From: Streptacidiphilus sp. ASG 303
Lineage (GTDB): Bacteria; Actinomycetota; Actinomycetes; Streptomycetales; Streptomycetaceae
Length of the DNA: 64,000 nt
Assembly: GCF_020991365.1 (NCBI RefSeq)
Contig: NZ_JAJLRA010000001.1
Coordinates: 176,142 to 240,141 of the forward strand
Direction of reading: 5' to 3'
Shown: positions 5,287 through 16,129 of the stretch, piece by piece
How the letters are laid out: every line of letters starts with the position of its first letter
Numbering within the stretch: the first letter of the stretch is position 1
Notes under the pieces: generated by a model
What the model was told of the DNA's origin: nothing
Seen by the model: only the letters and a program-made list of their open reading frames with translations
Databases searched by the model: none
Made by a program: the position numbers and the translations under genes

Positions 5287-7914
5287 TCAGCCGCCGTAGT
5301 AGGCGGCGCGCATGAGCGCCTCCATCTCGTCGAGCATCGGCATCCGGGGGTTGGCCGGGGCGCACTGGTCGTCGAAGGCGTTGCGGGCCTGCCGGGGCAG
5401 GTCGGCGAGGAACGCCTGCTCGTCGACGCCCAGGGCCTGGAAGGACGGCTCGATGCCCACCGCCCCGCGCAGCCGCTCCACGGCGGCGGCGTAGGACTCG
5501 ACGCCCTCCTGCGGGGTGGCGGCGGGCAGGCCGAGGGTCCGGGCGATCTCCTGGAACCGCTCGGGGGCCCGGTAGTGCCCGTACGCGGGCCAGCCGGTCG
5601 GCTTGGACGGCACGGTGCCGTTGTGGCGGACCACGTGGGGCAGCAGCACCGCGTTGGTGCGGCCGTGCGCGAGGTGGAAGGTCGCGCCCAGGGTGTGGGA
5701 CATGGCGTGGACGATGCCCAGGAACGCGTTGCCGAAGGCCATCCCGGCGATGGTGCCGGCGTTGTGCATGTGCTCCCGGGCCCCGGCGCCGCCGGTCCGG
5801 TCGTGGACGGCCCGCTCCAGGTTGCCGAAGACCAGCCGGATCGCGTGCAGGGCGAGGCCGTCGGTGAAGTCGCTCGCGTACACCGAGACGTAGGCCTCGG
5901 TGGCGTGGGTGAGGGCGTCGAAGCCGCTGTCGGCGGCGAGCGCGGGCGGCAGGTCGGCGGTGAACAGGGGGTCGACGATGGCGACGCTCGGGGTGAGGGC
6001 GTAGTCGGCCAGCGGGTACTTCGTGCCGGTCGCACTGTCGGTGATCACCGCGAACGGGGTGACCTCGGCGCCCGTCCCCGAGGTGGTGGGGATGCAGACC
6101 AGCCGGGCGCGTCCGCCGGGGGCGGGGAAGCGGAACGCCCGCTTGCGGATGTCGGAGAACTTCTGCCGCATGTCGGAGAAGTCCACGTCGGGGTGCTCGT
6201 ACAGCAGCCACATCACCTTGGCCGCGTCCATGGGCGAGCCGCCGCCGAGCGCGATGACGGTGTCGGGGCGGAACTCCCGCATCAGGGCGGCGCCGTGCCG
6301 CACCGCGTCGATGCCCGGCTCCGGCTCCACGGAGTCGATCACCTGGACGACGACCGGCTCGCGGCGCCGGTCGAGGACCCGGCGCACCCGGTCGACGAGG
6401 CCGAGCCGGGTCATGGTGGCGTCGGTGACCACGGTGACGCGGTGGACGTCCGGCATGGAGGCCAGGTAGCGGACCGACTGCGGCTCGAAGTAGACCTTCG
6501 GCGGCACCTTGAACCACTGCAGGTTGCTCTGCCGGTTCGAGACGTGCTTGATGTTGAGCAGGTCGGCCGCCGAGACGTTGTCGGACACGGACGTCGACCC
6601 CCACGATCCGCAGCCGAGCGTCAGCGACGGCAGCAGGCTGTTGTAGACGCCGCCGATGGCGCCCTGCGACGACGGCGCGTTGACCAGGATCCGCACCGCC
6701 CTGATCCGCCGGCCGTACTCCTCGGCGAGCCCCGGGTCGTCCGCGTGGAGGACCGCGCTGTGGCCCTGGCCGTGGAAGTCCACCATGGCGGCGGCGAGGG
6801 CGATGCCCTCCTCGGTGGAGCCGGCCCGCAGGACGGCGAGGACCGGGCAGAGCTTCTCGCGGGTCAGGGGCTCGTCGGGGCCGACCCCGGCGACCTCGGC
6901 GAGGATGACGGAGGTGTCCGCGGGCACGGCGAAGCCGGCCTGCTCAGCGATCCACGCCGGGCTGCGGCCGACCGCCGCCGGGTTGACGCGGGGCTCGCCG
7001 TCCGCCGTGCGGCCGCCGCCGAAGAGGTACGCCTCCAGCAGCCGCTTCTCCTCCGCGGTGGCCAGGTGGGCGTGGAGGGCGCGGAAGTGCTCCAGGGCGT
7101 CGTCGTGGACCGCGGCGTCGAGGATCACGGCCTGCTCGGAGGCGCAGATCATGCCGTTGTCGAACGCCTTGGACAGGACGATGTCGTTGACCGCCCGCCG
7201 CAGTTCGGCGCTGCGGTGCACGTACGCGGGCACGTTGCCCGCGCCGACGCCGAGGGCGGGCTTGCCCGCCGAGTACGCGGCCTTGACCATCGCGTTGCCG
7301 CCGGTGGCGAGGACGAGGGCGGTGCCGGGGTGGCGCATCAGCAGGGTGGTGGCCTCGACGGAGGGGTCCTCGATCCACTGCACGCAGTCCTCCGGGGCGC
7401 CCGCGGCGACCGCGGCGTCCCGCACGGTGCGGGCGGCCTCGGCGCTGCACCGCTGGGCGGCGGGGTGGAAGGCGAAGACCACCGGGTTGCGGGTCTTGAG
7501 CGCGATCAGCGCCTTGAAGACCGTGGTGGAGGTGGGGTTGGTGACCGGGGTGACCGCGCAGACGACGCCCACCGGCTCGGCGATGCGCACCATGTCCCCG
7601 ACGTCGTCGCGGTCGATGACGCCGACCGTCCGCAGCGGGGCTATGGAGTGCACCACGTGCTCGCAGGCGAACATGTTCTTGGCGGCCTTGTCCTCCAGGA
7701 CGCCGCGGCCGGTCTCCTCCACCGCGAGGCGGGCGAGGTCGGTGTGGCGCTCCAGGGCGGCCACCGCGGCCTTCCTCACGATCCGGTCGACCTGCTCCTG
7801 GTCGAGCCGCTCGAAGTCGGCGAGGGCCTTGAGGCCGGCGGCGACGAGACGGTCGACGGCGATCGCCGCGTCCGAGGGCGGGGCCTCGGCCTGCGGGACG
7901 TCGTGGGCAGTCAT
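5287..7914 (-). CDS. adhE: Bifunctional acetaldehyde-CoA / alcohol dehydrogenase AdhE
   Basis: An 875-residue fusion, close to the 891 of the E. coli enzyme, that reduces acetyl-CoA to acetaldehyde and then ethanol with two NADH. The N-terminal aldehyde dehydrogenase half shows the catalytic Cys257 in GMICASEQ and the ATGGNAMVKAAYSAGKPA region. The C-terminal iron alcohol dehydrogenase half shows GGGSPMDAAK, the PTTSGTGAEVTPF motif, and Fe ligands in DALTHATE, HAMSHTLG and HGRTNAVLLPH. The ATG at 7914 follows GGAGGG. It lies 253 bases downstream of pflA on the same strand and would re-oxidise NADH while using acetyl-CoA made by PflB. No Rex-type operator was found upstream. A complete fermentative AdhE is unexpected in a streptomycete. 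Confidence 0.95.
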   Translation of the reverse strand: MTAHDVPQAEAPPSDAAIAVDRLVAAGLKALADFERLDQEQVDRIVRKAAVAALERHTDLARLAVEETGRGVLEDKAAKNMFACEHVVHSIAPLRTVGVIDRDDVGDMVRIAEPVGVVCAVTPVTNPTSTTVFKALIALKTRNPVVFAFHPAAQRCSAEAARTVRDAAVAAGAPEDCVQWIEDPSVEATTLLMRHPGTALVLATGGNAMVKAAYSAGKPALGVGAGNVPAYVHRSAELRRAVNDIVLSKAFDNGMICASEQAVILDAAVHDDALEHFRALHAHLATAEEKRLLEAYLFGGGRTADGEPRVNPAAVGRSPAWIAEQAGFAVPADTSVILAEVAGVGPDEPLTREKLCPVLAVLRAGSTEEGIALAAAMVDFHGQGHSAVLHADDPGLAEEYGRRIRAVRILVNAPSSQGAIGGVYNSLLPSLTLGCGSWGSTSVSDNVSAADLLNIKHVSNRQSNLQWFKVPPKVYFEPQSVRYLASMPDVHRVTVVTDATMTRLGLVDRVRRVLDRRREPVVVQVIDSVEPEPGIDAVRHGAALMREFRPDTVIALGGGSPMDAAKVMWLLYEHPDVDFSDMRQKFSDIRKRAFRFPAPGGRARLVCIPTTSGTGAEVTPFAVITDSATGTKYPLADYALTPSVAIVDPLFTADLPPALAADSGFDALTHATEAYVSVYASDFTDGLALHAIRLVFGNLERAVHDRTGGAGAREHMHNAGTIAGMAFGNAFLGIVHAMSHTLGATFHLAHGRTNAVLLPHVVRHNGTVPSKPTGWPAYGHYRAPERFQEIARTLGLPAATPQEGVESYAAAVERLRGAVGIEPSFQALGVDEQAFLADLPRQARNAFDDQCAPANPRMPMLDEMEALMRAAYYGG

Positions 7915-8092
7915 GGCGGAACCCTCCGTGGTGGGGATGCGTGCCGTGCGGGTGTGCGCGGCGGGCCGTGCCGGGCCGTGCGCGCCGCACGGGCGGGCGG
8001 GGCCAGCCGGGCGGGCGGCCCGGGGCGCCGCGACGGCCTCCGGCGCTCCCGCCCCACTGTGGCGCCCGGCGCCCGCCGCGGTCCGGTGCCGA

Positions 8093-8113
8093 AGGTCCCG
8101 CCCCGGGGGACCT
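8093..8113. promoter_or_regulatory. Inverted repeat between pflA and adhE
   Basis: AGGTCCC and GGGACCT form perfect 7-base arms around 7 bases. It may be a weak terminator for pflA or an operator for adhE. The GGGAC/GTCCC cores recall DevR/DosR-type oxygen-responsive boxes, but the half-sites face the other way and spacing differs, so this is only a suggestion. The rest of the 7915-8167 gap shows no clear promoter. Confidence 0.35.
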
Positions 8114-8167
8114 GCCGACCCGGCGCCGGCGGCTGTCCGTCCCGGCGCCGGTCGGCCCGACGGCCCC

Positions 8168-8983
8168 TCAGTACGCCTCGAGTCCGCGGGCGGTGAAGCG
8201 GTCGCGGACCCGGGCGACCAGCTCCGGGGCGGGCGCGGGGGTGTGCGCCAGCGGGAAGCGCAGCCCGAGCGCCCGGTACTTGGCCTCGCCCAGGCGGTGG
8301 AAGGGCAGCACGTCCACGCGGCGGACGCACTCCAGCCCGGCGGCGAAGTCCGCCAGGCCGTCGACGGCGTCGAGGTCGTCGGTCCAGCCCGGCACCAGGA
8401 CGTAGCGGATCCAGGTGGGCGTGCCGAGCCGGTCCAGCCGCCGCGCGAAGCGCAGGGTCGGGGCGAGCTCCCCGCCGGTCAGGCGCCGGTACACCGCCGC
8501 GTCGAAGGACTTGACGTCCAGCAGCACCAGGTCGGTGTCGGCGAGGAGCGCGTCCCCGGCCCGCTCCCCCAGGAACCCGGAGGTGTCCAGGGCGGTGTGC
8601 AGGCCGAGGCCCTTGCAGCGGCGCAGCACCTCGGCGGTGAACGCGGGCTGCAGCAGCGGTTCGCCGCCGCTGACGGTGACGCCGCCGCCGGCCGCCCGCA
8701 GGAAGGCGGCGCACGTCCCGACCTGCGCCAGCACCTCGTCGGCGGTGGCGGTGCGGCTGTCGCGCATGTGCCAGGTGTCGGGGTTGTGGCAGTACAGGCA
8801 GCGCAGCGGGCAGCCGCCGGTGAAGAGGACGAACCGGGTCCCGGGACCGTCCGCACCGGTGGAGAGGTCCCAGGAGTGCACCCGGCCCGTGACGGCAGCG
8901 CCGCGCCCGGGACCGCCGGCCGCCGGACGCCCGTCCGCAGGACCGCCGGTCGCCGGGTGCCCGGCCACGGGGCGCCCGGTCAC
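8168..8983 (-). CDS. pflA: Pyruvate formate-lyase-activating enzyme (radical SAM)
   Basis: A 271-residue radical SAM enzyme that abstracts a hydrogen from the glycine of PflB to make the glycyl radical. The cluster motif C-x3-C-x2-C is present ([13 protein letters not shown]), together with [20 protein letters not shown] at the family's usual N-terminus, the SGGEPLLQ motif and LLDVKSFD. Its GTG start (8983) overlaps the pflB stop by four bases, so the two are translationally coupled. The first 30 residues are an odd extension of five-residue units (such as [10 protein letters not shown]) encoded by a 15-bp tandem repeat; homologues normally begin near the VTGRVHSWD stretch, so an internal start is possible. 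Oxygen-sensitive by family knowledge. Confidence 0.93.
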
Positions 8984-8985
8984 AG
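8911..8985. repeat. 15-bp tandem repeat at the pflB-pflA junction
   Basis: Five degenerate 15-base units (8911, 8926, 8941, 8956, 8971) cover the stop codon of pflB and encode the extra N-terminal residues of PflA. Confidence 0.75.
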
Positions 8986-11238
8986 GGCGCCGTGGAAGGT
9001 GCGGCTGAGCACGTCGCGCTGCTGCTCCCTGGTCAGCCGCACGAAGTGGACGGCGTACCCGGAGACGCGGACGGTGAGGTCCGGGTACTTCTCCGGGTGC
9101 TCCATCGCGTCCTCCAGGGTCGCCCGGTCGAGGACGTTGACGTTGAGGTGGTAGCCGCCGGAGGCGGTGTAGGCGTCCAGCAGGCCCACGAGGTTCACGA
9201 CCCGCTCCTCGGGGGCGCGGCCCAGGCCCTCCGGCGTGACGGTGGAGGTCAGCGAGATGCCGTCACGCGCCTCGTCGTACGGGATCTTCGCGACGGAGAG
9301 GGCGGAGGCGGCCATGCCGTGGCGGTCGCGGCCGTTCATCGGGTTGGCGCCGGGCGCGAAGGGGGCGCCCGCCGGCCGCCCGTCGGGGGTGGCGCCGGTG
9401 TGGCGGCCGTAGACGACGTTGGAGGTGATCGTGAGCACCGACAGGGTGTGCTCCGCGCCCCGGTGGGCCGGCCGGCGGCGGATCTTCGCCATGAAGGAGC
9501 GCACCAGGTCCACCGCGATCGCGTCGGCCCGGTCGTCGTTGTTGCCGTACGCCGGGTAGTCGCCCTCGACCTCGTAGTCCACCGCGAGGCCGGAGGCGTC
9601 GCGGACCACCCGCACCCGGGCGTGCCGTACGGCGGAGAGGCTGTCGGCGGCCACCGACAGCCCGGCGACGCCGCAGGCCAGGGTGCGCCGGACGGGGTGG
9701 TCGTGGAGGGCCATCTCCAGCCGCTCGTAGGCGTACCTGTCGTGCATGGCGTGGATGACGTTGAGCGCGTCGACGTAGGTCTCCGCGAGCCAGTCGAGCA
9801 TCCGGTCGTACGCGGCGGCGAGCTCGTCGTAGGAGAGGTACGCGCCGGTCAGGGGCGGGAGCTCGGGGCCGACCTGCTCGCCGGTCATCTCGTCGCGGCC
9901 GCCGTTGACGGCGTACAGCAGGGCCTTGGCGAGGTTGACGCGGGCACCGAAGAACTGCATCTGGCGGCCCGTCTCCGTCGCGGAGACGCAGCAGGCGATG
10001 GAGGTGTCGTCGCCGGTGACCGGGCGGAGCAGCTCGTCCGACTCGTACTGGATGGAGCTGGTGTCGACCGAGACCTGTGCGCAGAACCGCTTGAACGGCT
10101 CGGGGAGCCGCGGCGACCACAGCACGGTGAGGTTGGGCTCGGGGGCGGGACCCAGGTTGTAGAGGGTCTGCAGGAAACGGAAGGAGGTGCGGGTGACCAG
10201 CGGCCGCCCGTCGGTGCCGACGCCGCCGATCGCCTCGGTGACCCAGGTGGGGTCGCCGGAGAACAGCTCGTCGTACTCGGGGGTGCGCAGGAAGCGGACG
10301 ATCCGCAGCTTGACCACGAAGTCGTCGACCAGCTCCTGGGCGCGCACCTCGTCGATGCGGCCCTCGGCGAGGTCGCGTTCGAGGTAGACGTCGAGGAAGG
10401 TGGAGGTGCGGCCGAGCGACATCGCGGCACCGTTCTGCTCCTTCACCGCCGCCAGGTAGCCGAAGTACAGCCACTGGAAGGCCTCCTGGGCGGTGGCGGC
10501 CGGCCCGGAGACGTCGAAGCCGTAGGAGGACGCCATCTCCTTGAGCTCGCCGAGGGCGCGCACCTGCTCGGACAGCTCCTCGCGGTCGCGGATCACGGCC
10601 TCGGTGGACGGCTCGCCGTCGAGGGCGGCCTTCTCGGCGCGCTTGGCCTCGACGAGGCGGTCGACGCCGTAGAGGGCGACCCGGCGGTAGTCGCCGATGA
10701 TGCGGCCGCGGCCGTAGGCGTCCGGAAGGCCGGTGATGACCCCGGCGCGGCGGGCGCGGAGCATGGCGGGCGTGTAGGCGTCGAAGACCGCGGCGTTGTG
10801 GGTCTTCCGGTACCTGGTGAAGACCTCCACGACCCTCGGGTCGGGCTCGTGGCCGTAGGCGCGCAGGCCGTTCTCGACCATCCGCAGGCCGCCGTTGGGC
10901 ATGATGGCGCGCTTCAGCGGCGCGTCGGTCTGCAGCCCGACGACCAGCTCGCGGTCGCGGTCGATCCAGCCGGGGCGGTGCGAGGTGATGGTGGAGGGGG
11001 TGGAGGCGTCCACGTCGAGCACGCCGCGGCGGCGCTCCTCGGGGAAGAGGGCGCTGACCTTCCCCCACACCGTGCGGGTCCGGTCGGTGGGGCCCTGGAG
11101 GAAGCCGGGACCGCCCGGGTAGGGGGTGTAGTTGGCCTGGACGAAGTCCCGCACGTCGACGCGCCCGCGCCAGCCGGAGCCGGTGAAGCCCCGCCAGGCG
11201 GTCCCCTCCGCCGTCGCCTGAGGTGCCGTCACTGTCAT
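8980..11238 (-). CDS. pflB: Formate C-acetyltransferase (pyruvate formate-lyase)
   Basis: A 752-residue glycyl-radical enzyme converting pyruvate and CoA to acetyl-CoA and formate without oxygen; E. coli PflB has 760 residues. Both active-site features are intact: adjacent Cys416-Cys417 in [12 protein letters not shown] and the radical site Gly727 in [10 protein letters not shown], 26 residues from the C-terminus. The frame extends upstream, but the ATG at 11238 has a GGAGG site and gives the expected N-terminus (WRGF...[14 protein letters not shown]). It is followed by pflA with overlap and then adhE, which makes a pyruvate-to-ethanol/formate module. No FocA-type formate channel or formate dehydrogenase lies in the window. 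The 269-base gap upstream shows only GC-rich short repeats (GGACGGGCCGGT-like). Confidence 0.96.
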
Positions 11239-11507
11239 CACTGCCTCCGCACGGTGGCCGGGAACGCCTGCACGGCCATCCTCGGCCCGCGGTCCGCGGC
11301 GGGACACGGCCCGCCGGGGCAGGAGTGCGGGGCCGTCCGGGCCGGCCGCCCGGGACGTTCGGGCCCCGGCGGCACGGCGGTGCGGCGGCGGACGGCGGGC
11401 GGTGCAGCAACAGCGGCGGCGGCGGCGGACGGGCCGGTAGGGCGACGGCGGACGGGCCGGTGCGGCGGCGGGCCGGTGCGGCGGCCCGGCCCGGGCCCGG
11501 GAGGCGC

Positions 11508-12122
11508 TCAGCCGCGCTGCCGGCCCCGCGCCTCGATCCGCTGCACCAGTTCGGCGGCCATCCCCTTGATGGTCTCCAGGCCCTCGCGTCCCCACGGGTG
11601 CGGGTCCTGGTCGACCACGCAGACCGTGCCGAGGACGACGCCGGTGCTGTCGATCAGCGGGGCTCCCAGGTAGGAGAGGACGTTGATGGCGTCGATGACC
11701 GGGTTCCCGGCGAAGCGCGGGAAGTCGCGGACGTCCTCCAGCACCAGGGCGCGGCGGCGCCGGACCACGTGCGGGCAGATGCCCATGTCGATGTTGCGCG
11801 GCATGATGCGGCCCGGCACCGGGTCGTCGAGCAGCGGCGCCCCCGTGTGCACGGTGGTGTCCTGCGCCTTGCTGTACAGGCCGGCGAAGTACTGGCGGTC
11901 CGCGTCCAGGAAGAGGTTGACGCCGGAGTAGCAGCCGCCGGTGCGGATCGCCAGCTCGCGGGCGAAGGCGTCGAGCTCCGGGTCGGGGCGGGCGTCGATG
12001 CCCAGCTCCCGCAGCCGCTCGGTGCGGGCGCGCACCTCCGGGTCCTCCGGGGGGAGGAGCAGGTGGCGCAGGGCGATCCCGGGCTCAGGCCCGGAGGAGG
12101 GGGTGCTCGGCATCGCTGCCAT
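11508..12122 (-). CDS. GAF domain protein of the conservon
   Basis: A 204-residue protein dominated by one GAF domain (about residues 45-195), with typical stretches [45 protein letters not shown] and [16 protein letters not shown] domains bind small ligands or haem; the ligand is not evident. The ATG at 12122 follows AAGGAG. The gene overlaps the end of the upstream GTPase gene by 38 bases and is the last of the five-gene cvn operon, where a downstream sensor-like or redox protein is usual. It probably relays or terminates the conservon signal. Confidence 0.85.
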
Positions 12123-12723
12123 CGGGACTCCTTGTCGTGATCAGGTACTGGACCAGGGAGAGCAGCACGCGGATGCCGGAGTTCTGGACGCGCGCGTCGC
12201 ACAGCACCACCGGCACCTCCGGCCGGAGGTCGAGCGCGGCGCGCACCTCGTCCGGCCCGTAGCGGTGCGCCCCGTCGAACTCGTTGACGGCCACCACGAA
12301 GCGGATGCCGCGGCGCTCGAAGAAGTCCACCGCGGCGAAGGAGTGGTCCAGCCTGCGGGTGTCGGCGAGCACCACGGCCCCGAGCGCCCCCTGCGAGAGC
12401 TCCTCCCACATGAACCAGAAGCGCTCCTGGCCGGGCGTGCCGAAGAGGTAGAGCACGTGGGCGGGGCCGAGGGTGAGGCGGCCGAAGTCCATGGCGACCG
12501 TGGTGGTGGCCTTGTCCTCCACCCCGTCCAGCCGGTCGGTGGCCGCGCTGACCGCCGTCAGCATCTCCTCGGTGCTCAGCGGCTCGATCTCGCTGACCGC
12601 GTTGACGAACGTCGTCTTGCCCACGCCGAACCCGCCGGCGACCAGCACCTTGACGCCCACCGGCAGGACGTCGCCGGGCGCCCGGCCGGGGCCGTCCGGG
12701 TCACAGTCGTCGGAGAAGGCCAT
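12085..12723 (-). CDS. cvnD: Conservon small GTPase (CvnD)
   Basis: A 212-residue Ras-like GTP-binding protein. The P-loop GGFGVGKTT is near residue 31, a switch region with TTTVAMDFGRL follows, then the G3-like LFGTPGQERFWFMW and the guanine-specificity region VAVNEFDGAH, where Asn-Glu-Phe-Asp stands in for NKxD as usual in CvnD. CvnD cycles at the membrane with CvnA-C much like a eukaryotic G-protein complex. It overlaps cvnC by 23 bases at its start and the GAF gene at its end, so translation is coupled. Confidence 0.9.
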   Translation of the reverse strand: MAFSDDCDPDGPGRAPGDVLPVGVKVLVAGGFGVGKTTFVNAVSEIEPLSTEEMLTAVSAATDRLDGVEDKATTTVAMDFGRLTLGPAHVLYLFGTPGQERFWFMWEELSQGALGAVVLADTRRLDHSFAAVDFFERRGIRFVVAVNEFDGAHRYGPDEVRAALDLRPEVPVVLCDARVQNSGIRVLLSLVQYLITTRSPDGSDAEHPLLRA

Positions 12724-13084
12724 CGAGCACCGCTTCCAGGAGGTGGGGGTCGGGGAGGACGTGGCGGCCCGGCGGCGCCGGGTCGAGGTCGCGGGAGACC
12801 AGGGCGCCGCCCTCGGCCAGGTCGGAGAGCAGGACCTTGACCACGGCCGCGGGCACCCGCATGCGGGCGGCCACCTCGGCGACGCTCACCGGCTGCTCGC
12901 ACAGCTCCAGCACCTGCGCGTGCTCGAGGCCGAAGGTGCCCTGCGCCGGCGCGCCGGTGGCCCGCACCATGGTCATCAGCGTGAAGTGGGACGTGGCCCT
13001 GGTCCGCCCGTCGCTGACGGTGTAGGGGCGGACGAGCCGGCCCGCCGCCTCGTCCAGCAGCGGGCCGTCCGTGACGTCCGGCAT
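12701..13084 (-). CDS. cvnC: Conservon DUF742 protein (CvnC)
   Basis: A 127-residue DUF742 protein: LVRPYTVSDGRTRATSHFTLMTMVRA near the start, then a winged-helix-like region (LEHAQVLELCEQPVSVAEVAARMRVPAAVVKVLLSDLAEGG). In conservons this subunit joins CvnA and CvnB in the membrane-associated complex. It lies seven bases after cvnB and overlaps cvnD. Confidence 0.9.
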   Translation of the reverse strand: MPDVTDGPLLDEAAGRLVRPYTVSDGRTRATSHFTLMTMVRATGAPAQGTFGLEHAQVLELCEQPVSVAEVAARMRVPAAVVKVLLSDLAEGGALVSRDLDPAPPGRHVLPDPHLLEAVLDGLLRRL

Positions 13085-13090
13085 CGCCGG

Positions 13091-13483
13091 CTACCCCACC
13101 GGCTGGCGGGGCGGGGTGGCCAGGTGCGGGCGCACGCTCTTGACCAGCATCGCCATCTCGTAGCCCAGCACCGCCGCGTCCGCCTCCCGGCCGGCCAGCA
13201 CCGCCAGCACCGCGCCGTGGCCGGCCGCGGAGACGAACAGCATCGAGGTGCTGAGCTCGGTCACGACCTGCCGCACGTCGCCGCCGTCGTCGAAGCGGCG
13301 GCCGGCGCTGCGCGCCAGCGAGTAGAGGCCGCCGGCCAGCGCGGCCAGGTGGTCCGCGGCGTCCTTGTCGAGCCCCTGCGCGGCCTTGACCAGGCCGTCC
13401 GAGGACAGCAGCAGGGCGCTGCGGGTGTGCGGCACCTTCTGCACGAGGCCCGCCAACAGCCAGGAAAGGTCTTCGCTCGCCAC
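13091..13483 (-). CDS. cvnB: Conservon roadblock/LC7 protein (CvnB)
   Basis: A 130-residue roadblock/LC7 domain protein (DLSWLLAGLVQKVPHTRSALLLSSDGL, then the GLYSLARSAGRRF helix and MLFVSAAGHGAVLAVLAG). Roadblock proteins regulate small GTPases, which fits the CvnD partner. It starts with GTG at 13483 behind an AGGAGGAG site. It is the second gene of the operon, 91 bases after cvnA. Confidence 0.9.
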   Translation of the reverse strand: MASEDLSWLLAGLVQKVPHTRSALLLSSDGLVKAAQGLDKDAADHLAALAGGLYSLARSAGRRFDDGGDVRQVVTELSTSMLFVSAAGHGAVLAVLAGREADAAVLGYEMAMLVKSVRPHLATPPRQPVG

Positions 13484-13574
13484 GATCGTGTACTCCTCCT
13501 CGACAACCGGAAACGGCTCGGTGGGCGGGGCGTCCCGACCCCGCCGGGCTCCTCCGCCCGGGCTCCCCCGCCGC

Positions 13575-15290
13575 TCAGGACTCCCCCGCGGGCCCGGACG
13601 CGCCGGCCTCCTCGGCCAGGCTGAAGCCGCTGCGGAAGGCGGCCATCAGGCCGGGGTCGTGCTCGACGTCCTCCGGGGCGGCGGAGGCGCGGGGCGGCTG
13701 CCGCCACGCGGCGTCGTCGTCGTCCTCCCGGCGGCGCCGGCGGGGCAGCGGGGGGCGGCCGTCCGCCGCGGGGGCGGGCCCGGGCCGGGGCTCGGTGGCG
13801 GCCCGGTGCCCGGGTGAGGACGCGGGCGCGGCGGCGTGCGCGGGTACCGGGGCGGCGTCCGGGTCCGGGGTCCGGCCGGGCCCGCGGGGGGCGGGTGCCT
13901 GCGCCGGGACGGCGGCGGGCGCGGACGCCGTCCGCGCGGCCGGCTCGGGCCGGTGCTCCGGCTCCCCGGCGGACCCGGCCCCGAGCAGGGCGGGCGGCAG
14001 GACCACCACGGCCTGCGTGCCGCCGTAGACGTTGCTCTGCAGCCGCACGGCGATGCCGTGCCGCCGGGCCAGGGCCGCGACCACGTACAGGCCGATCCGG
14101 CCGTCCTGGAGCAGGTCGCCCAGGGCGACCGTGTCCGGCGAGGACAGCAGGGCGTTCATCCGGCCGCGCTCGGCCGGGGACATGCCCAGGCCCCGGTCCT
14201 CGACCTCGATCGCCACGCCCGCGGTGACCGGCTCCACCCGCAGCTGCACGGCGGTGTGCGGCGGGGAGTACACCGTCGCGTTCTCCACCAGCTCCGCCAG
14301 CAGGTGGACGACGTCGACCACGGCGTGGCCGCCGACCGCGCCCTCGATCGGGGGGACGAGCTTGACCCGGGCGTACTGGTCGATCTCGGCCACGGCGGAG
14401 CGCAGCACGTCGGTGAGGCCGACCGGACGGGTCCACTGGCGGTGGGAGCCCGCGCCGCCGAGCACGGCCAGGTTCTCGGCGTACCGGCGGATGCGGGTGG
14501 AGAGGTGGTCGACCCGGAACAGGCCCTTGAGCAGGTCGGGGTCCTCGACCTCGTTCTCCAGGTCGTCCAGCAGCCCGATCTCGCGGTGCACCAGGGACTC
14601 CAGGCGGCGGGCGAGGTTGGCGAACACCTCGAACCGCTCCAGGCGGGCGCCGTGCTCCTCGCCGCCCGCGCGGGCGGCGGCCTCCAGGACGGCCGTCTCC
14701 GCCTCGCGCCGGGCCTCGGCGATCTCGTGGCCCAGCCGCGACAGGGCGTCCGGGCCTGGCCGCGGCGACGGCTCGCGGCGGGGGCGCACGGGGCGGCCGC
14801 CCTCCTCCAGGCCGCGGCGCAGCTCGGCGAGCCCGGCCCGGCCGTCGGCCACGGCCCGGACGAGGCCCTCCAGCGCGTCCAGGTCCCGGTCCAGCGCCGC
14901 CCGGTCCCGGTCCACGGCCTTCCGGTCGCGCTCCAGCACGGCGCGCTCGTGGTCCAGCGCGGTCCGCTCCTGGCCGGCCGACCGGGACAGCTGCGCCCAG
15001 CGCACCGAGACCGTGCGGGCCTCCGCGGAGGCCCGCATGCCGGCGACACCCGCGGCCACGGCGCCCAGGAGGGCCGCGCCGCCGAACACGGCGCCCTGCT
15101 CGGCGGAGTCCAGCCGGCCGCCGGCGGCCAGCGCGGTGGTGGCGGCGCCGGCGAGGGCCACCACCCCGGGCGGCAGCACGGACAGCAGCACCAGACGCCG
15201 CCTCAGGGACCTGGCGTCCGCCGCGGGCGGCACGGGGGCCGGGGCGGTCCAGGCCGGACGGCCGGCCGGCGGCATCGAAGGATCAGGCAT
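13575..15290 (-). CDS. cvnA: Conservon sensor histidine kinase-like protein (CvnA)
   Basis: A 571-residue sensor. Two membrane helices lie near the N-terminus (about 31-55 and 65-85). A long coiled coil rich in Asp/Arg heptads (DRDRAALDRDLDALEGLV) follows, then a HATPase domain (about 290-400) with N box LVENATVYSPPH and G boxes DRGLGM and DGRIGLYVV. The C-terminal 170 residues are a disordered Pro/Ala/Arg tail. A canonical phospho-acceptor H box is not obvious, as in other CvnA proteins. The ATG at 15290 heads the operon, with a promoter at 15339-15367. By family, CvnA holds CvnB-D at the membrane. Confidence 0.9.
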   Translation of the reverse strand: MPDPSMPPAGRPAWTAPAPVPPAADARSLRRRLVLLSVLPPGVVALAGAATTALAAGGRLDSAEQGAVFGGAALLGAVAAGVAGMRASAEARTVSVRWAQLSRSAGQERTALDHERAVLERDRKAVDRDRAALDRDLDALEGLVRAVADGRAGLAELRRGLEEGGRPVRPRREPSPRPGPDALSRLGHEIAEARREAETAVLEAAARAGGEEHGARLERFEVFANLARRLESLVHREIGLLDDLENEVEDPDLLKGLFRVDHLSTRIRRYAENLAVLGGAGSHRQWTRPVGLTDVLRSAVAEIDQYARVKLVPPIEGAVGGHAVVDVVHLLAELVENATVYSPPHTAVQLRVEPVTAGVAIEVEDRGLGMSPAERGRMNALLSSPDTVALGDLLQDGRIGLYVVAALARRHGIAVRLQSNVYGGTQAVVVLPPALLGAGSAGEPEHRPEPAARTASAPAAVPAQAPAPRGPGRTPDPDAAPVPAHAAAPASSPGHRAATEPRPGPAPAADGRPPLPRRRRREDDDDAAWRQPPRASAAPEDVEHDPGLMAAFRSGFSLAEEAGASGPAGES

Positions 15291-15367: not shown

Positions 15368-16129
15368 CCCCCGCGGACAGGAGAGATCCAACCGTTGCCT
15401 CGGCGGTCGGGGGCGGGGTCACCGCGGCGTTCCGCGGCCTTCCGCGGCCTGCGGACGGCGGCCCGGGGGACGGGCCGGGGAGGGGTGAGCGGGGCGGCGG
15501 GCGGCGGACGACCGACGGCGGACGACCGGCAACCGGCGGCGGGGATCGCACGGCCGTGCCGCGCCGCGGGTCCGCCCGGCACCGTGCCCCGGCCCCCCGG
15601 TGCGGCCGGGGCAGGGGCGCGGCCGGGGCACAGGCGGTGCGCGGGCACGGGCGGCGGGGGGCCGGGGCGGCTCCCGGTGGGTCTCGCGCCTCCCGGCGGA
15701 GGAGCCCGGCGCGGTCCGGAGAGGGACGGAAACCGGCCTGGGAGGTGAGGTCCGTCACGGGGGCCGCGGGTCCTCCGACGGTCCGTAGTACCCGGTCGGA
15801 GGGCGGACCCGGCCCGCAGGCGCGGAAAGGGCATTCTCGGCAAATGAGACACGGGCGCCGGACGGAGGCCGTCCGCGCAGCTCAGGAGGGGTGACAGCAC
15901 CCGGGGCGGCGGGGGCACCGGACCCGCACCCGGTTCCGCGCCGTGTCAAGAGGAGGCGTACGCCTACGACGGCACGTCGTAACGGCGCTCTTTGCCGCTC
16001 TGTCCATACCCCCCACACGATGACGGAAACCTCCGGGGCGAAGAAACCTCGCCGCCCGTCGTGCGGCACTCCGCTCCGGAGGACGGATCGACGCAGACCG
16101 CCCCCGCCCCGAAGCACCAGGAGAAGTAC
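15368..16129. other. Long GC-rich gap between cvnA and the CHAP-like gene
   Basis: About 760 bases without a convincing gene. It holds short imperfect repeats (a CGGACGACCG-type pair near 15510-15540) and a 15-base hairpin ACGACG-GCA-CGTCGT at 15966-15980, about 150 bases before the CHAP-like gene. That may be part of a 5' leader. I looked for the conserved segments of the c-di-AMP (ydaO) riboswitch that precedes many secreted wall hydrolase genes in streptomycetes and did not find them. Confidence 0.4.

Follow-up and report, generated by a model that had tools for sequence, protein, structure and literature searches.

The locus described here raises the question of what a set of genes for an oxygen-sensitive fermentation does in a streptomycete, a soil actinobacterium, and what controls it. 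How streptomycetes survive oxygen loss is only partly understood. Within a 64-kb window, by which we mean the whole stretch of DNA that was analysed, lie genes for pyruvate formate-lyase (PFL), its radical-SAM activase and a bifunctional acetaldehyde/alcohol dehydrogenase (AdhE). We propose that pflB-pflA and adhE form a low-oxygen module turning pyruvate into formate and ethanol, controlled by the response regulator OsdR. We give this reading a probability of roughly 0.7; enzyme activity, OsdR binding, induction and a use in survival we infer from sequence.

The original prediction had placed pflB-pflA-adhE at 5287-11238, and profile searches confirm this. From the ORF coordinates in the window, the genes follow in that order of transcription on the minus strand. 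All three proteins exceed their NCBIfam equivalog cut-offs, PflB with 1107.5 bits against TIGR01255 (cut-off 994.2), PflA with 289.2 bits against TIGR02493 (231.75) and AdhE with 1295.8 bits against NF010378 (951). Pfam assignments are consistent with these calls, AdhE being a fusion of Aldedh and Fe-ADH domains. The catalytic residues, also predicted to be intact, are indeed in place in PflB, PflA and both AdhE active sites. PflB keeps Cys416-Cys417 as well as Gly727, the latter inside RVSGY, and residues 58-65 of PflA form a radical-SAM CxxxCxxC motif (CPLRCLYC). In AdhE, Cys257 lies within DNGMICASEQ, which aligns to DNGVICASEQ of the AdhE structure 6tqh. Residues Asp666, His670, His736 and His750 have the same spacing as the Fe ligands of E. 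coli AdhE, which we take to be numbered 653, 657, 723 and 737. The alignment to E. coli PFL (1h16) covers PflB nearly end to end, and PflA and AdhE align over nearly their full lengths to the PFL-activating enzyme 8fo0 and to 6tqh. The set therefore resembles E. coli PFL, its activase and E. coli-type AdhE in near end-to-end homology and in the same catalytic residues. These comparisons support intact enzymes as named, with predicted catalysis.

As listed, pflA begins 4 bp inside the end of pflB, and the two genes are therefore probably co-transcribed. Since the TIGR02493 match begins at PflA residue 34, the true pflA start may be an internal GTG about 30 codons in. A gap of 253 bp separates pflA from adhE, which may have its own promoter (Table 1).

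Table 1. Genes and candidate regulatory boxes of the pfl-adhE locus (positions in the window).
Feature	Position	Strand	Evidence or remark
pflB, pyruvate formate-lyase (752 aa)	8980..11238	-	TIGR01255; CC416-417 + G727; 1h16 match over residues 12-749
pflA, radical-SAM PFL activase	8168..8983	-	TIGR02493; CPLRCLYC; 8fo0 match
adhE, bifunctional acetaldehyde/alcohol dehydrogenase (875 aa)	5287..7914	-	NF010378; 6tqh match over residues 21-874
Conservon-like genes (histidine-kinase-like ATPase, Roadblock, DUF742, ATP/GTP-binding protein) and GAF protein	11508..15290	-	directly upstream of pflB
OsdR/DevR-type box 1, upstream of pflB	11351..11366		score 11.6, best single site in window
OsdR/DevR-type box 2, upstream of pflB	11329..11344		score 10.3, 22 bp from box 1
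OsdR-type box, upstream of adhE	8144..8159		score 9.7; overlaps weaker tandem pair
Weaker tandem pair before adhE	8129-8144 + 8152-8167		sum 11.9
Weaker OsdR-type box, upstream of adhE	8085..8100		score 8.2

The evidence for OsdR control comes from boxes in the promoter regions of both pflB and adhE. They were scored with a matrix built from the 26 sites (25 distinct) of Table 1 in PMC5069765. A 16-bp box of this kind (section 7 of that paper) is what the locus has in common with the OsdKR regulon of S. coelicolor and S. lividans and with the DevR/DosR regulon of M. tuberculosis. Box 1 lies 128 bp before pflB and forms with box 2 the best tandem pair of the 64-kb window (21.9, for pairs 20-25 bp apart); the next independent pair is the one before adhE. 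Among the 37 intergenic stretches of the window, as defined by a crude GC3 gene call, the region upstream of pflB ranks first and that upstream of adhE second, both for single boxes (11.6 and 9.7, next 8.4) and for tandem pairs (21.9 and 11.9, next 8.1). Compared with Markov-1 sequences, the best sites have P values of 0.0075 in the pflB region and 0.0385 in the adhE region; coding sequence elsewhere in the window scores up to 11.0 on the same matrix. Boxes 1 and 2 are imperfect next to the published sites, which score 11.1-18.1 on a matrix that was built from them, and the sites in the window fall below the published average.

Boxes also precede pflB in relatives. We applied a pair test to 28 regions, namely the window and 27 loci chosen as close relatives (at least 78% identity) among 80 named loci, which are themselves the best 80 of 578 confirmed stretches; more distant loci such as L057 and L110 were left aside, and the relatives are not independent of one another. 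A significant pair (P<=0.05 against Markov-1 sequences) was found upstream of pflB in 26 of the 28 regions, L033 and L053 failing the test; a spacing of 21-24 bp was likewise seen in 26 of 28. Both boxes score at least 4 in only half of the regions (14/28), and elsewhere the score comes mainly from one of the two. A MAFFT alignment of the upstream regions, made independently of the matrix, revealed two conserved blocks that agree with the box and are roughly 22 bp apart. A single-box comparison with further 400-bp segments of these loci, which can be box-rich, gave a weaker result, with boxes standing out (at or below 5%) in only 18 of 38 relatives. Upstream of adhE, a site of at least 8.8 is present in 10 of the 11 regions scanned, these being drawn from the 16 loci with an adhE match.

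The genome also encodes the regulator and its likely sensors, as expected from the OsdKR and DevR systems. The response regulator OsdR is encoded on contig C22 and shares 70% identity with the regulator found near pfl in S. ruber (L037), the next of the 11 matches reaching 40%. At this locus (L178), OsdR is accompanied by a phosphoketolase (84-86%), a USP-like gene (34-43%) and two kinases that are encoded on opposite strands. In each kinase the first GAF domain matches the DevS GAF structures 2y8h and 2w3d as well as 2vzw, presumably DosT, including the motif HPPMRTFLGVP. The histidine of this kind of motif is, we assume, the one that binds haem in DevS, and haem binding is predicted for both kinases. 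Having two DevS-like kinases beside OsdR (L178 12409-16243) is reminiscent of DevS and DosT in M. tuberculosis. An OsdR box with a score of 18.1 lies at L178 11468 and appears to precede the regulator receiver domain. The pfl genes are on contig C111 and so do not lie beside osdR. Such adjacency is common but not required, since PMC5069765 tabulates targets far from osdR.

Published work on the regulon bears on this reading in several ways. In PMC6302529, a table of S. lividans genes that rise with osdR includes a putative PFL (SLIV_36865/SCO0206), and lists an N-terminal activase fragment called a putative pseudogene. Compared with S. lividans, pflB and pflA here both look intact, and osdR is found on a different contig. 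The OsdR target table in section 7 of PMC5069765 does not contain PFL. A literature search that mostly covered papers outside subscription gave PMC6302529 as the one paper on OsdR and PFL in Streptomyces, and none that describes OsdR boxes in front of pfl or adhE.

The gene neighbourhoods of relatives provide a further view. In the 80 named loci (best 80 of 578), a pflA match follows pflB in 78; in the two others (L063 and L088) the sequence breaks off no more than about 210 bp beyond pflB. The flanks, at most 10 kb long and often cut short by the end of a contig, contain an adhE match in 16 of these 80 loci, partial in L038 and L046. The S. ruber neighbourhood (L037; 10 of 13 called genes scanned) contains phosphoketolase, CBS-BON, PPDK, USP, amino-acid kinase and zinc alcohol dehydrogenase genes, together with a two-GAF histidine kinase and a LuxR-type response regulator. 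That of S. abikoensis (L034; 10 of 16 called genes scanned) contains phosphoketolase, USP, two CBS-BON genes and a HAD hydrolase, as well as a globin/FAD-binding protein, arginine deiminase, ornithine carbamoyltransferase and an amino-acid kinase. Both resemble the OsdKR region SCO0167-SCO0219 of S. coelicolor, as given in PMC5069765. Whereas some relatives have these genes embedded in an osd-type island, in the present genome they are located away from it, yet the boxes are kept.

PFL had been thought unusual for such bacteria, and in this respect the prediction did not hold. In a sample of 394 Streptomycetaceae genomes that includes this one, PflB has a match in 143 and exceeds the cut-off in 132; the remaining 11 matches are partial or weak, those in G004 and G160 lying in adjoining pieces. 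AdhE exceeds its cut-off in 97 of the family genomes. Both proteins occur in 94, PflB alone in 38 and AdhE alone in 3, a co-occurrence with a Fisher p of 4e-55 when the 394 genomes are counted as independent despite their kinship. Across a phylum sample of 396 genomes, PflB has a match in 69 and exceeds the cut-off in 30. Within the genus, this genome alone among three has PflB. Wide conservation, which would make the locus ordinary, is thus seen at the family level but not at the genus level, and the fermentation module is patchy yet ordinary within Streptomycetaceae. In-frame stops counted in the AdhE of relatives proved, in the four loci read (L152, L159, L161 and L164), to be the ordinary stop codon that follows the matched C-terminal end.

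PFL converts pyruvate and CoA to formate and acetyl-CoA; for each acetyl-CoA reduced to ethanol AdhE consumes two NADH, and acetate kinase yields ATP. Another contig carries a gene of the acetate/propionate kinase family, and an FNT-type formate channel was not found in the 99.5% complete draft genome. The label of a full mixed-acid block, originally given to the locus, is overstated, as the block comprises three genes only. The lack of a detected FNT channel and the upstream boxes like those of actinobacterial dormancy regulators both distinguish the system from that of E. coli. Contig C156 encodes a 462-aa segment (L184) that matches the actinobacterial formate dehydrogenase model NF041513 with 893.6 bits, against a cut-off of 1400 that applies to the whole model. 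With such a segment present, formate may be oxidised beyond mere excretion. PFL could then serve mainly as a formate source for formate-dehydrogenase respiration or one-carbon metabolism, with ethanol a minor product, an arrangement that would suit the undetected channel and the 38 of 132 PflB genomes that have no AdhE above cut-off. We regard this as rather unlikely, considering that adhE adjoins pfl here and has OsdR-like boxes of its own.

A less likely alternative is that the enzymes are as named but controlled by Rex, by an Fnr/Crp-like factor or by the adjacent conservon instead of OsdR. Rex governs anaerobic genes in Staphylococcus aureus through a site resembling that of S. coelicolor Rex (PMC2883068). 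Against such control, seven Rex- and Fnr-like palindrome patterns gave a single partial match in the window, at 15745 and thus outside the pfl-adhE region, and the two of them that were also searched in five relatives, over the 500 bp preceding pflB, gave none. Rex or Fnr control was set aside, as none of the patterns tried matched near the genes. The conservon-like genes are suggestive by their position directly upstream of pflB. Conversely, none of the 80 named loci (best 80 of 578; flanks up to 10 kb) gave a conservon match close to pfl, and the conservon GTPase-like protein reaches at best 60% and 65% identity in the two genus mates, which is the level of paralogues within this genome. With no clear orthologue in these two genomes and none near pfl in the 80 loci, the conservon was rejected as a dedicated regulator, and we judge these genes to be neighbours and not part of the fermentation system. 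A comparison with related genomes had been proposed for this region; the two genus mates have neither pfl nor a clear orthologue of the GTPase-like protein, which indicates that the region varies within the genus.

The ancestry of PflB was traced through its relatives and two trees. Its closest named relatives (best 80 of 578) are mostly from Streptomyces, at 78-84% identity, and also from Wenjunlia and Actinacidiphila; PflB of Nonomuraea, Actinomadura and Spirillospora shares 78-79%. In a 39-row tree, the kind of check that the prediction had suggested, the PflB of the window falls in clade A of the Streptomycetaceae (SH-aLRT 100); its allies are Nonomuraea, Actinomadura/Spirillospora and Actinoplanes, the wider set having an SH-aLRT of 96. 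A second Streptomycetaceae clade B (SH-aLRT 86) is placed elsewhere among Actinomycetota. A 122-row tree agrees with these placements, and a topology joining clades A and B is not rejected (p-AU 0.102). A PFL search of a plasmid collection was used for tree outgroups only. With PflB in a clade of Streptomycetaceae that is itself surrounded by filamentous actinomycetes, a recent foreign transfer is unlikely. The idea that any transfer was old or came from a high-GC donor is supported by this placement and by the GC3 of the three genes (0.95-0.99), which is similar in neighbouring genes. A recent horizontal gain of the cassette from a facultative anaerobe, which patchy presence might suggest (one of three genomes in the genus, 132 of 394 in the family), is very improbable and was set aside on both trees, given that base composition matches the surroundings, the upstream boxes are common to relatives, and partial PflB copies in some genomes and the putative activase pseudogene of S. 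lividans (PMC6302529) are compatible with loss. A gain within the family may nevertheless have occurred.

Streptomycetaceae have two separate PflB lineages (L003-L032 and L033-L056), and a few genomes, for example G047 and G093, have two full-length copies. Clade B, to which L003-L032 belong, has named members with 69-74% identity to PflB of the window (best 80 of 578). It resembles the present locus in that adhE is close to pflB in several genomes, such as G107, G110, G168 and G170, but in these four adhE precedes pflB. Two pfl relatives (79-80% identity) are on records labelled as plasmids, a 5.7-Mb linear Embleya replicon (L188) and an 11.85-Mb Nonomuraea record (L187) whose size suggests a chromosome. 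In small-genome Actinomycetota, PFL is split in all 21 loci seen (L116-L118 and L120-L137): the core gene stops and a glycyl-radical domain of about 83 aa forms a separate downstream ORF. Unlike these, the streptomycete PFL of L119 is fused. By eye, an ORF with an activase-like CPMRCAYC follows the split PFL of L123. The PDB chains 38la and 38lb match the PFL core only and look like the split type, which therefore seems to be already under study.

For the OsdR-controlled module, we envisage the following sequence of events. On low oxygen (or NO), the DevS/DosT-like GAF kinases would signal to OsdR, which would switch the genes on via the two boxes before pflB and those before adhE. PflA would place the glycyl radical on Gly727 of PflB, which could then cleave pyruvate to formate and acetyl-CoA. 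AdhE would reduce part of the acetyl-CoA to ethanol and so recycle NADH, while the acetate-kinase-family enzyme encoded elsewhere in the genome would turn the remainder into ATP. The module would be used for survival rather than growth. A low-oxygen role had been suggested originally and gains support from the dormancy-regulator boxes upstream, though the role is one that we infer.

The enzyme set is ordinary and widespread, and what the present analysis adds is its likely place in a dormancy regulon. With slightly less confidence than for the module itself, we consider that PFL and AdhE probably belong, as conserved members, to the OsdR/DevR dormancy regulon in filamentous actinomycetes, with boxes kept even away from the osd island. 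Such a link is consistent with the putative pyruvate formate-lyase that rises with osdR in S. lividans (PMC6302529). It would give hypoxic mycelium a definite pathway for energy and redox balance. If true, supposedly strict aerobes hold fermentation in reserve for mycelium starved of oxygen.
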